NCBI RefSeq assembly: GCF_014696615.1
Contig: NZ_JACJQJ010000013.1
Span: forward strand, 1-64,000
DNA: 64,000 bases
DNA from: Nostoc linckia FACHB-104
Lineage (GTDB): Bacteria; Cyanobacteriota; Cyanobacteriia; Cyanobacteriales; Nostocaceae
Direction: 5' to 3'
Both the position numbers and the translations under genes were made by a program. This document shows, one piece after another, positions 17,869 to 22,716 of this stretch (its first letter is position 1; each line of letters opens with the position of its first letter). The notes below the pieces were generated by a model, which did not search any database, had not been told where the DNA came from, and saw only the letters and a list, made by a program, of their open reading frames with translations.

Positions 17869-17942
17869 TACATGAACTTTGGCAAGCAGGGTAAGCAAGC
17901 GTAGCATCAATATTGAGTAATTTATTCCTTTATTCTTGACTG

Positions 17943-18235
17943 AATCAACTTCAGGGTTCCCGGAATTACCATCAGGGTTGACATTTCCGTGTTTCGCGCA
18001 GTCGGAATCAACTTCAGGGTTCCCAGAATTAACATCAGGGTTAACGTTTCCGTGTTTCGCGTAGTCGGAATTAACTGCAGGGTTGACGTTTCCGTGTTTC
18101 GCGTAGTCGGAATTAACTGCAGGGTTCCTGGAATCAACATCAGGGTTGACGTTTCCGTGTTTCGCGTAGTCGGAATCAACTTCACGGTTCCCGCAATCAA
18201 CATCAGGGTTGACGTTTCCGTGTTTCGCGTAGTCT
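17943..18235. repeat. Tandem repeat array built on 21-bp subunits
   Basis: Five copies of a block containing tttccgtgtttcgcg recur at intervals of 63, 42, 63 and 63 bp. Each block is made of 21-bp subunits of the pattern 'aatcaacttcagggttcc'. Because 21 is a multiple of three, frames stay open on both strands; I do not regard either as a gene. Unlike CRISPR there are no unique spacers. Confidence 0.8.
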
Positions 18236-18462
18236 GTAGGAAATTTCGCCTTGAGGTTAACAAAAACATACTGGCGTTCTAAAATTCACCAACAGTTTTA
18301 AACCCTAGAAATGACATATTTTGAGACTTTCAAAATTATAAATTGCGCTAAATTACGGAAATTTTGAGTTTTTTCAGAAAAATCAACAATTCTACGTATG
18401 ACAAATTTTTCCATAATTGTCCACTATAGATTTAGGAAAAATTTGCTAATAGGGTGCAAATA

Positions 18463-18825
18463 ATGTCAAGAATGAAACGTAGTTCACGTGTTCTTAGCAA
18501 AGCTGAGAAGCGTCTAGCTAGTATTGAATCTATCAATTCCAATCTCGACGTAGGAGAAGGATTAACAGTCCAAGATTATACTGAAAAAATCCAAAACCTG
18601 CGCGAATCTTTAAAAGCATATAATCGTACTCTCTCTACTATAGATAATTTATTAACTCAAATTGTAGAGAATGAAAAAGATTTAGCAGATTATTCTGAGA
18701 ACATTTTGCGTGGTATTGCCTATAAATTTGGCAGCGATAGCCATGAATATCAGATGGCTGGGGGTACAAGGAAAAGCGATCGCAAACGTGTTGTGCGCCA
18801 AAATGCAGCTGTGCCTACTGCGTAA
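18463..18825 (+). CDS. Conserved hypothetical coiled-coil protein (120 aa)
   Basis: A basic-ended, mostly helical protein: a heptad-like central region (YTEKIQNLRESLKAYNRTL, STIDNLLTQIVENEKDLAD) is followed by a basic C-terminal tail (RKSDRKRVVRQN). AGGG sits eight bases before the ATG at 18463, so I prefer it to a GTG nine bases upstream. I do not know the function; the helical core and length recall small cyanobacterial proteins of unknown role. Confidence 0.7.
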   Translation: MSRMKRSSRVLSKAEKRLASIESINSNLDVGEGLTVQDYTEKIQNLRESLKAYNRTLSTIDNLLTQIVENEKDLADYSENILRGIAYKFGSDSHEYQMAGGTRKSDRKRVVRQNAAVPTA

Positions 18826-19471: not shown

Positions 19472-22183
19472 TTATCTTCTTAACTTAGCACTTACTAAAT
19501 TCCACAAAAGCAGCAGAATGAACCATAAAAATGCAAATGGAAAGGCTATTAAACCGAAAATAAAACACGAAATAAACTGTAATTTCCCAGTTTGCGCGAA
19601 GTTTATTAGCGATTTTAGCCACTGAGGATAAGTTTCAAGAGAATCTCTAAGTTCTTGAGAAATCTGCTGGGCTTGGTACGAGGCGGCAAATCCTTCCTGA
19701 ATTCTACCAAAACGAGAATAGGTAATACCCAAATTCATTAAGCATAAGCCTTCAGCATTGCGATCACCTATTTTCCTAAAAATATCCAAAGACTGCTGGT
19801 AGAATTCAATCGCCCTTTGGTATTCCTCAAGAGAACTGTAAGCAATCCCTAAATTCATTAAGGATAAGCCTTCATTCTTGCAATTACCTATTGCCTTAGA
19901 TAGATCCAAAGACTGCTGGCAAAACTCAATTGCTCTTTGGTATTCTCCTAAAGATAAATAAGAATTGACCAAATTTGTTAAGTATAAGCCTTCATTATTG
20001 CAATCACCTATTTCCCTTGCAATATCTAAAGACTGCTGGTAGAACTCAATCGCCCGTTGGTGCTGTCCCAAGGAGTTGTAAGCAGTACCCAAATTGCCCA
20101 AGGAAGCACCTTCGTTGTTGCGAGCGCCTATTTCTCTCGATATATCTAAAGACTGCTGGAAAAACTCAATCGCCCTTTGATAGTTTCCCAGGGAGTAGTA
20201 TACATTTCCCAAACTAATTAAGGAATTACTTTCGCTCTTGCGAGCGCCTATTTCTCTCGATATATCTAAAGACTGCTGGAGGAACTCAATCGCCTGTTCG
20301 TACTGTCCCAAGGAGTTGTAAGTATTGCCCAAATTGCCTAAGGAAGTACCTTCGCCATTGCGATTGCCTATTTCCCGATTGATCTCCAAAGATTGCTGGA
20401 AGAACTCAATCGCCCGTTGGTACTCTCCCAGGGATTTGTAAACATTACCTATACCGATTAAGACAGCATCTTCGCCGTTGCGAGCGCCTATTTCTCTCGA
20501 TATATCTAAAGACTGCTGGAAAAACTCAATCGCCTTTTGATAGCGTCCCAGGGAGTTGTATACATCTGCCAAATTGTTTAAGAAATTACCTTCGCTCTTG
20601 CGATCGCCAATCTCCCTAAAGATATCCAATGACTGCTGGTAGAACTCTATCGCCCGTTGGTACTCTCCCAGGGAGTTGTAAGCATTGCCCAAATTGCCCA
20701 AGGATTTACCTTCGCCATTGCGATCGCCGATTTCCCGTTTGATATCTAAAGACTGCTGCAAGAATTCTATCGCCCGTTGGTACTGTCCCAGGGAGTTGTA
20801 AGTATTGCCCAAACCGATTAAGGAATTAGCTTCGCCATTGCGATCGCCAATTTCCCTGGAGATATCTAAAGACTGCTGGTAGAACTCTATCGCCCGTTGG
20901 TACTGTCCCAGAGAGTCGTAAGCAATGCCCAATGAACCAAGAGAAGCAAGATAATTCCAATTTTCTCTAGCGCCGATTTCTTGCCATTTACTTACTAACT
21001 GCCCATATAATTCTACCTGGTCTACATAATGACCGCGTAAGGTTAAAAAATTATCGCAAAACCGAAGCGCATCAAAGGCAGAATTATAATCTTCCAATTG
21101 ATAAAAGTGATGAAAAATTTCTAAGTATTCTTTAACATCATCTTTTGTTTTCCAAGGCTTTTGTTTAGCAATTGAGCGATAATAATCAATAGCTCGTTGA
21201 TGTTCCTCAGTCTGATTGCCAGCCTTATACCGCACATATTCCAAAACCACAGGCTGAAACTCAAATCGCCGCTTACCATTCAGCTTTTCTACCAACAAAG
21301 AACGCTTAACAATATTCCTTAATTCTCCCTCAATCTCTGCTGCTGAATTTCCTGGTAACACCGCCACGGCTGCTGCACTATCAACCGCACCACGATAAAC
21401 ACTAATATTCAGCAATAAAGCCTTTTGTAACTCACTCAATCTATTAAAACTGGCATCTAATACCAACACCATCCCCACATTTTCCCGGCGATGCACACCT
21501 ACCACTTGAGTATCTGTCAACAACTGCTGCAAATTCCCTAATCCTAAATCTGCTAATCTTTTTAAATCTGGGTCTTGGGGATATTCTTCTTTTAATAAAT
21601 CACCTACCAATCGCAACAGCAGGGGATGTCCATCTACTAATTCAACAAACTCTGCTAAATCTCCCCGAATCCCTAATGCTGTTAACAGTGCTACCCCTTC
21701 ATCTACTAGCAAACCTTTCAAAGGTAGCCACTCAAAGCCTTTTAATTCTGGTCTTTCTCTGGTGGTAACTATTACCTTACTATTACCGCCAAATTCCACC
21801 CAAGCGTTGAAAAATTCGCCGTAGAATAGACTTCCCCATTGTCTATTAGGTTGTAATAAACTCTCTAGATTGTCAATAATCAGTAAAAATTCACCACTGC
21901 GTAAACACCTCACCAGCGCTTCTACTAACTGCGCTTCATCTTCTGGAACCGGAAAGCCAAATTCACTGAGTACTTGACGGGCTAAATCGCTAAAACTTGC
22001 CCCATTACTCACATCAGCCCAAAATCGCTTGGGGAAACCTGCAATTTCTTCATAAATTTTCGTCGCCAGCATCGATTTACCAGTACCACCGATGCCTTCT
22101 ATGCCAATTAAAAAGGTATTGTTATCAGTTAACCATTGCTGTATTTGAGTAATTTCTGCTTTGCGTCCTTGCCAATACGCCAA
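19472..22183 (-). CDS. NB-ARC/STAND NTPase with 11 TPRs and C-terminal membrane segment
   Basis: Residues 1-280 are an NB-ARC-type switch ATPase: P-loop GIEGIGGTGKSML, Walker B FLLIIDNLE, sensor VIVTTRERPEL and the GHPLLLRLVGDLL motif. Residues about 400-845 are eleven 40-residue TPRs, ten almost identical (pattern LG..Y.SLGQYQRAIEF.QQSLDI.REIG.R). The tail holds one membrane segment (about 870-895). STAND proteins bind a trigger through the repeats and oligomerise to activate an N-terminal effector; some are anti-phage sensors. The only standard start is a TTG at 22183, placed at the very edge of the ATPase, yet the frame is open 42 codons further upstream without any ATG, GTG or TTG. It therefore probably continues the gene at 22288-22716 by a -1 frameshift. 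Confidence 0.85.
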   Translation of the reverse strand: MAYWQGRKAEITQIQQWLTDNNTFLIGIEGIGGTGKSMLATKIYEEIAGFPKRFWADVSNGASFSDLARQVLSEFGFPVPEDEAQLVEALVRCLRSGEFLLIIDNLESLLQPNRQWGSLFYGEFFNAWVEFGGNSKVIVTTRERPELKGFEWLPLKGLLVDEGVALLTALGIRGDLAEFVELVDGHPLLLRLVGDLLKEEYPQDPDLKRLADLGLGNLQQLLTDTQVVGVHRRENVGMVLVLDASFNRLSELQKALLLNISVYRGAVDSAAAVAVLPGNSAAEIEGELRNIVKRSLLVEKLNGKRRFEFQPVVLEYVRYKAGNQTEEHQRAIDYYRSIAKQKPWKTKDDVKEYLEIFHHFYQLEDYNSAFDALRFCDNFLTLRGHYVDQVELYGQLVSKWQEIGARENWNYLASLGSLGIAYDSLGQYQRAIEFYQQSLDISREIGDRNGEANSLIGLGNTYNSLGQYQRAIEFLQQSLDIKREIGDRNGEGKSLGNLGNAYNSLGEYQRAIEFYQQSLDIFREIGDRKSEGNFLNNLADVYNSLGRYQKAIEFFQQSLDISREIGARNGEDAVLIGIGNVYKSLGEYQRAIEFFQQSLEINREIGNRNGEGTSLGNLGNTYNSLGQYEQAIEFLQQSLDISREIGARKSESNSLISLGNVYYSLGNYQRAIEFFQQSLDISREIGARNNEGASLGNLGTAYNSLGQHQRAIEFYQQSLDIAREIGDCNNEGLYLTNLVNSYLSLGEYQRAIEFCQQSLDLSKAIGNCKNEGLSLMNLGIAYSSLEEYQRAIEFYQQSLDIFRKIGDRNAEGLCLMNLGITYSRFGRIQEGFAASYQAQQISQELRDSLETYPQWLKSLINFAQTGKLQFISCFIFGLIAFPFAFLWFILLLLWNLVSAKLRR

Positions 22184-22287
22184 ACTTTTCTGTGGGTTCC
22201 CGGCTTTGAGAACCCCAGGCGATTCTGCTTTGGTACTGCTTTCTAATAAAGCTAATATTTCCTCCTGTTCAGCAGTAATAATATTAA

Positions 22288-22311
22288 TTACTTTGGGTTG
22301 TCGTACCTCCT
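22288..22311 (-). promoter_or_regulatory. Candidate programmed -1 frameshift site
   Basis: On the minus strand AGGAGG (22311-22306) is followed after eight bases by CCCAAAG (22297-22291) and directly by the stop TAA (22290-22288). The heptamer is in the X XXY YYZ register of the upstream frame, and -1 slippage enters exactly the downstream NTPase frame. An upstream Shine-Dalgarno plus slippery heptamer is the known layout of the bacterial dnaX -1 frameshift. Confidence 0.55.
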
Positions 22312-22716
22312 AAAGTCATAAGTTGAGTTATCAACACCACCTGCTTTATTAATCTGTATACTTTCATCGTAAGATTGAGCATTAAGATTAACAGAACCAT
22401 CAGCAGATTTTGTTTCTTGCCAAATCTTGGCTATTTCCTCAGCCAGTGCTGTATCTGAATCCAAAATCTTCTTGATTTGTACTCGCAAGCTGGCTTGTAA
22501 ATCTTCATCATCTGGATTTTGCGCCACATCCGCCGCCGCTTCCTTTGCTGCTTCCTTCGCCTCTACCTTGGGTAGTAACTTAGCCCAAATAGCTTTCGCT
22601 TTATTCCACCCATCCTCACCAACTTTCTGCGATGCGCCTTCTATGGCTTTATTACCCACATTCAACAGGAACGGCAAACAAGGCGCGAGAAACTTAACAA
22701 TTAAAGCAATATCCAT
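22288..22716 (-). CDS. N-terminal (effector-associated) part of the STAND protein
   Basis: A 142-residue product from the ATG at 22716 (a GTG at 22737 is the alternative). It has a hydrophobic start (IALIVKFLAPCLPFLLNVG), a helical, Ala/Lys-rich middle (KAKAIWAKLLPKVEAKEAA) and an LRVQIKKILDSD part, typical of the short domains that precede NB-ARC or TPR modules in cyanobacterial STAND proteins. Its last codons, CCA AAG TAA, contain the heptamer C CCA AAG with an AGGAGG eight bases upstream. A -1 slip there reads on into the NTPase frame and would give one protein of about 1,080 residues. Alternatively the break is a mutation or sequencing error. Confidence 0.75.
   Translation of the reverse strand: MDIALIVKFLAPCLPFLLNVGNKAIEGASQKVGEDGWNKAKAIWAKLLPKVEAKEAAKEAAADVAQNPDDEDLQASLRVQIKKILDSDTALAEEIAKIWQETKSADGSVNLNAQSYDESIQINKAGGVDNSTYDFRRYDNPK

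Follow-up and report, generated by a model that had tools for sequence, protein, structure and literature searches.

A conserved programmed −1 frameshift very probably links a small helical protein to an NLR-like STAND NTPase in Nostocaceae

On the reverse strand of a 64,000-nucleotide stretch of Nostoc linckia FACHB-104 (NZ_JACJQJ010000013.1, positions 1 to 64,000; the window), a 142-codon open reading frame (ORF) ends in a slippery heptamer that adjoins its stop codon, and a −1 slip there leads into the frame of an NB-ARC/TPR protein. Comparison with homologous loci of the same layout, which we term class A, makes it very probable that C CCA AAG / UAA is the site of a conserved programmed −1 ribosomal frameshift. 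Taken as a whole, the explanation we consider best—a frameshift that gives a free BELL-like effector and an effector–NLR fusion from one mRNA—is likely to be right. Outside transposable elements, prfB, and dnaX, conserved programmed frameshifting is, to our knowledge, uncommon in bacterial host genes. The junction comprises:

22288..22716, − strand: short 0-frame ORF, 142 aa, BELL-like effector candidate (ATG at 22716, stop included)
22306..22311, − strand: AGGAGG, Shine-Dalgarno (SD)-like, with an 8-nt spacer 5′ of the heptamer (duplex −11.6 kcal/mol; optional in the family)
22291..22297, − strand: slippery heptamer C CCA AAG in X XXY YYZ register (CCCAAAG in 21 of 22 class A loci, AAAAAAG in 1)
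22288..22290, − strand: 0-frame stop TAA, adjoining the heptamer (TAA in 22/22 class A loci)
22184..22291, − strand: −1-frame linker, translated only after a slip (KVINIITAEQEEILALLESSTK...), open and without ATG, GTG, or TTG, with a −1 codon-position pattern in 17 other loci
19472..22183, − strand: NB-ARC/TPR ORF, 903 aa from the TTG at 22183 (ORF-finder call, from the ORF list)
21752..22162, − strand: NB-ARC domain match (Pfam PF00931, E 6.3e-12)
19766..20944, − strand: TPR repeats, approximate extent (Pfam TPR_12, E 2e-92, and related models)

The short ORF closes with AAC CCA AAG TAA. An earlier note had described this end, the register of CCCAAAG, the AGGAGG eight bases upstream, and the adjoining stop, all of which are exact base for base. 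Its claim that a −1 slip enters the frame of the 903-residue NB-ARC/TPR protein was also confirmed, the predicted product being ~1,081 aa (142 + 939). The first ATG, GTG, or TTG of that frame is the TTG at 22183, upstream of which the frame is open to 22309, giving the 42 open codons that had been reported; VINIITAEQEEILALLESSTK, a tryptic linker peptide of the window copy, lies upstream of any such codon. The downstream protein combines an NB-ARC P-loop domain with a repeat sensor (Pfam NB-ARC and TPR), as in NLR-like STAND NTPases. NCBIfam returned no match for the short protein and, for the NLR, TPR proteins with most rows below the cut-offs; PADLOC likewise had no match for the short protein and matched the NLR only with TPR and other repeat-driven models. 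Downstream of the heptamer, the linker contains a second AGGAGG (22261-22266); neither ATG, GTG, nor TTG occurs close to it.

To place the junction among its relatives, we surveyed 217 genomes of the window's family (Nostocaceae), of which 74 carried a relative of the N-domain at 93 places, and drew 27 loci from a named collection, among them Nostoc, Anabaena, and Aphanizomenon records. Loci read were 30 of the 93 family places, 40 further stretches, and the whole named set of 27; the 21 family places outside this reading are at ≤50% identity, apart from one 25-residue fragment. Class A was defined as loci whose NB-ARC frame starts within 80 nt of the short ORF's stop, and among the loci read this frame is always −1. 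Removal of duplicates reduced 34 class A rows to 22 distinct loci in 21 genomes with 8 genus codes, two of the loci belonging to the window genome. Of 388 genomes sampled across the order, 52 had a match; 30 of these belong to other families, and class A was found in 0 of the 10 outside places read; a plasmid search gave only two distant N-domains (<60% identity).

Ortholog alignment showed heptamer and frame change retained together: a slippery heptamer in the 0-frame register followed by TAA ends the short ORF in 22/22 class A loci, and the downstream −1 frame is kept in all 22. Among the read loci with NB-ARC within 80 nt of the stop, there was no single-frame ortholog lacking the heptamer. 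An X XXY YYZ heptamer ends only 1 of 61 other N-domain ORFs (A AAT TTT at L037, a two-gene locus), whose stops are TAA in 32, TAG in 23, and TGA in 6 (heptamer before stop, 22/22 vs. 1/61, Fisher P = 3.3e-19, rows not independent). CCCAAAG by itself is not rare, with 10 occurrences in the 64-kb window against 10.0 expected; the above-chance feature is thus the heptamer directly before the stop, in 22/22 homologues with the −1 arrangement vs. 1/61 of the other N-domain ORFs.

That window count, equal to the chance expectation, is what a chance heptamer would give, and a decayed gene or a sequencing indel had been named earlier as the plain alternative. Single copies do decay: in one class A locus (G208; L056/L072), residues 1-25 and 18-140 lie ~1 kb apart, so that its N-terminus is interrupted. 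Against this stand 22 distinct loci in 21 genomes with the same arrangement and both frames otherwise open where read, which effectively exclude decay or indel and leave this family of explanations, chance included, with almost no probability. The window genome itself holds a second copy on contig C77, with 86% DNA identity over query bases 133-2716, which reads AAC AGC CCA AAG TAA CTA and thus retains the slip site between different flanks. The 5′ part of this copy ends contig C147, whose last 86 bases equal the first 86 of C77 (by eye), so that the two contigs probably join. Each copy has the same small gene nearby (MKRSSRVLSKAEKRLASIES-like; window 18454-18825 and L126:3441-3812), and a larger unit may therefore have been duplicated; short-repeat ORFs (ARNTET...) also lie near both (window 17922-18269 and L126:3984-4373).

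Variation around the site is unevenly distributed. In the 17 of 22 loci that have one linker length in common, the final four bases of the heptamer and the TAA never vary, while pairwise differences per site are 21% over the next 30 nt and 33% over the upstream 30 nt, figures compared ungapped, with a one-codon tail indel inflating the upstream value. Of 27 short-ORF columns with an invariant amino acid (Met and Trp left out), 4 are also invariant in codon. Linkers fall into three length classes, two of them shorter than the commonest by 3 and 9 nt, and all stay in the −1 frame. The linker varies by codon position in the manner of −1-frame protein (0.176, 0.146, and 0.246) in 17 loci that exclude the window copy. 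In codons 3-16 after the stop, variation is lowest at third positions (0.148 vs. 0.181 and 0.210; 17 loci), a pattern that would fit an added constraint on the RNA. A −1-frame stop immediately precedes the heptamer on its 5′ side in 8/22 class A loci, where the frames can be joined only by slipping on the heptamer itself.

These patterns bear on whether the NLR has a start of its own, at TTG 22183 or by near-cognate re-initiation after the TAA, and is made as a separate protein coupled to the short gene. The TTG is the ORF-finder call, a start codon occurs at +41 to +50 in 16/22 loci, and a TTG at +107 or +116 in 21/22. The same TTG, however, encodes the leucine of KSLAYWQGR, which lies ~65-70 codons past the ATG in the class B NLRs compared and is absent in L018, where the first start codon falls five codons before the Walker A motif; no ATG, GTG, or TTG precedes +107 in 6/22 loci. 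Independent initiation also leaves the invariant heptamer and TAA unexplained, and the linker sequence that precedes the TTG changes between loci as −1-frame protein does. We consider two separate proteins very improbable and read the junction as a frameshift.

The one exception in heptamer sequence bears on the kind of slippage. In L018 (identical in sequence to L040, a MAG) the heptamer is A AAA AAG; on the tree this locus is nested among the CCCAAAG loci (starred branches 97/98 and 97/90), indicating, from one sequence only, that one slippery heptamer was swapped for another. Its seven As could favor slippage of the polymerase rather than the ribosome as the event that joins the frames. The other 21 loci have CCCAAAG, with no run longer than 3, far below the runs of ~nine at which polymerase slippage is reported in the available part of one study (PMC3711429); these short runs count against transcriptional slippage, to which we assign a very low probability. 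For the ribosome, C_CCA_AAG is described as highly shift-prone in E. coli in passages of a review (PMC5009743). The window genome encodes both tRNA-Lys UUU and tRNA-Lys CUU, and the latter should moderate slippage at AAG; according to PMC4066793, such motifs can still occur in IS elements when it is present. Among the stretches read were also tRNA arrays of 18 genes (L158, on C59) and 21 genes (L159, on C97), the second including a CUA anticodon that ARAGORN assigns to Pyl.

Two kinds of candidate stimulator were compared. The earlier note had proposed a dnaX-type design of SD plus heptamer. The SD-like pairing of the window copy is strong (−11.6 kcal/mol), but the design is not family-wide: pairing of −7 kcal/mol or better is found in 7/22 loci (L001, L011, L013, L018, L019, L020, and L066), and we rejected a conserved SD as the family-wide main stimulator. 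RNA 3′ of the site is more structured than protein-keeping synonymous shuffles (mean z −1.73; 17/22 loci below −1), compared with 0.12, −0.23, and −0.29 in three control regions inside the NLR. Five of the 22 loci miss z −1, and the window copy, at −0.34, lies near the shuffled mean. On this comparison, 3′ RNA structure is the commoner candidate stimulator in the family than the SD-like element. Its candidate stem has two arms:

22271..22277, − strand: 5′ arm of the candidate 3′ stem, TACTGCT (from family helix counts; weak structure at the window copy)
22234..22240, − strand: 3′ arm of the candidate 3′ stem, AGCAGTA (from family helix counts; weak structure at the window copy)

Across the family, this stem (GGT[A/G]CTGC/GCAG[T/C]ACC) is paired in 93.6% of cells. 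It contains one covarying pair (AU 11, GC 5, GU 5, other 1), and 27/500 shuffles reach its score, so that covariation support is modest. Adding a stop-adjacent stem to the main stem gives an H-type pseudoknot paired in 84.2% of cells, with 1/500 shuffles as high and 4/500 for covariation; for its lower helix, pairing reaches only 62% of cells. The RNAalifold consensus, a method that cannot show pseudoknots, is weak (−2.09 kcal/mol). A full pseudoknot at the slip site is a possibility, less well supported than the main stem. A trade-off between strong SD and 3′ structure was considered and set aside as a trend only (Spearman −0.40, P = 0.06, loci not independent). Overall, comparison of the loci supports the frame arrangement, the heptamer, the stop, conserved −1 coding, and the 3′ RNA structure.

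The short protein has two parts in the window copy:

22414..22716, − strand: predicted helical N-domain, residues 1-101 (AlphaFold2, mean pLDDT 66.9, helices 3-101)
22312..22383, − strand: disordered tail, residues 112-135, without a QVG core, at the place of the class B QVG (AlphaFold2 model and tail comparison)

Searches with the N-domain gave little to name it by: Foldseek against PDB returned nothing at E 0.001 or better, a profile search of PDB sequences yielded 9 hits up to E 1, most of them to designed helical proteins, and Pfam on 54 members found scattered weak matches (the commonest in 11/54) and no family match. With a helical model at pLDDT 66.9 and no Pfam or fold match, the short protein is a candidate BELL. 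Several relatives (among L078-L085, L087, and L093) have a frame that stays open for ~200 to 300 codons ahead of the N-domain Met, and longer proteins may thus exist there.

Context for this candidate comes from related loci with two genes (class B), in which an effector ending, e.g., NIQVSANAYDQSTVKQVGKIDANQVSF is followed by an NLR starting, e.g., MAEEPSPSNSNNIEMNLTAYGESKVTQVGQINAAEV, whose open frame begins 43-786 nt past the effector's stop. L055, L070, L073, and L078 have class B tails and no NB-ARC match within the stretch read. A motif (QVG) common to the effector C-terminus and the NLR N-terminus was present in 11/11 class B pairs tested (11 of a set of 12 class B loci), scoring 35-61 vs. 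shuffled means of 19-22, with 0 to 14/1000 shuffles as high and L053 weakest. Class A lacks both halves of this pairing: the NLR-side copy is absent, with scores of 13-28 mostly near shuffled values (L018 at 28, 5/300 shuffles as high), and the tails examined have no QVG core. On these grounds, class A departs from the standard BASS pair. N-domain ORFs of L077, L087, L093, and others end in other motif-like tails (NQVIGKMEGNAKAIGKVHGNVNM, GNKSIGKVSGDATIN), and at L058/L077 and L087 the downstream protein carries a matching, different motif (by eye).

We propose that class A works like a BASS pair in which the second motif is replaced by the frameshift fusion. In-frame ribosomes would stop at UAA and release the 142-aa BELL-like effector with its flexible tail; a fraction would slip back one base, from CCA AAG to CCC AAA, and continue into a ~1,081-aa fusion carrying the identical effector and tail followed by the NB-ARC/TPR sensor. 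The fusion may serve as the signal-sensing nucleator and the short form as the effector pool, activation causing oligomerized fusions to recruit free effectors through the shared N-terminal part. Slip efficiency would then fix the ratio of short to fused product with no second gene needed, a role to which the paired-motif sister loci give concrete form. We infer the occurrence and rate of slippage, the effector activity, and the purpose from this arrangement. The division into effector pool and sensor is the reading we lean toward, by a little, and its recruitment step is weakened by the missing QVG core in class A tails. That loss would also suit a real frameshift whose short product serves as a decoy or as an inhibitor of the fusion, as would the ability of an IS short product to act alone as a regulator, noted in a review (PMC5009743). 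The homologous short protein of class B, however, stands beside a motif-bearing NLR, as in published pairs described in part of a review (PMC7889193), and we regard a decoy role as plausible though unlikely. Should the effector-pool reading be right, an NLR-like bacterial receptor would have its effector-to-sensor ratio set by a seven-base slip site, tunable and testable, with the sister loci bearing paired RHIM-like motifs as a natural comparison set. Annotation pipelines would likely record such a receptor as two entries, a small hypothetical protein and an NLR truncated at its N-terminus.

One-gene and two-gene forms are intermingled in descent. Classes A and B are mixed on the N-domain tree, leaving a single origin of class A unsupported, and on an NB-ARC tree (quick search, 44 rows) they are mixed again, with 11 changes and 18/500 label shuffles as low. 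Genome G014 carries one locus of each class (L010 and L065), and thus a class A locus beside a member of the comparison set. The mixing may reflect gene conversion between paralogues that left the class A junction intact. A broader picture, on which we are evenly divided, is a one-gene NLR signalosome in which the frameshift replaces motif pairing: effector alone and fusion would come from one mRNA with an identical shared part, at a ratio set by the slip, with the two forms interchanging and the heptamers swappable.

Among known systems, the arrangement most resembles in its parts the BELL/BASS pairs of multicellular bacteria (Dyrka et al. 2020), in which, as far as the accessible text of three papers goes (PMC7889193, PMC8086366, PMC9815663), BELL effectors and NLRs share BASS motifs. 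Both have a small helical effector-like protein beside an NLR, and class B also has the motif shared between effector C-terminus and NLR N-terminus; class A differs in lacking the NLR copy and the QVG core and in reaching the NLR by a −1 frameshift. A frameshifted NLR was not found in the literature among the matches listed. Effector and NLR genes of the Dyrka 2020 pairs can overlap, according to part of a review (PMC7889193), and earlier notice of the arrangement in that work is therefore possible.

A single-frame counterpart occurs at L125:575-3970, where one ORF joins an N-domain relative to a QVIGQ motif, nSTAND1, and a periplasmic-binding domain. It is followed by L125:4052-4807, a CHAT protein whose N-terminus carries a similar motif, NQVIG. 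As in the class A fusion, an N-domain relative precedes a STAND NTPase in one protein, here together with a RHIM-like motif; unlike class A, it is encoded in a single frame without a slip, has another NTPase and another sensor, and is followed by the CHAT protein.

In its recoding signals, class A shares with dnaX a slippery heptamer (A AAA AAG in one lineage), an SD-like element in some copies, and predicted 3′ structure; in class A the SD-like element is not conserved. The direction of the product is opposite to that implied by the proposed dnaX-type design: frameshifting truncates the dnaX product, whereas the class A slip extends the short protein, as in IS3-type elements. IS3-type orfA/orfB likewise gives a short 0-frame product and a −1 trans-frame fusion at X XXA AAG, as described in the portions available of two papers (PMC5009743, PMC4066793); class A differs from it in having no mobile-element gene, an NLR in place of a transposase, and a stop that adjoins the heptamer in 22/22 loci.
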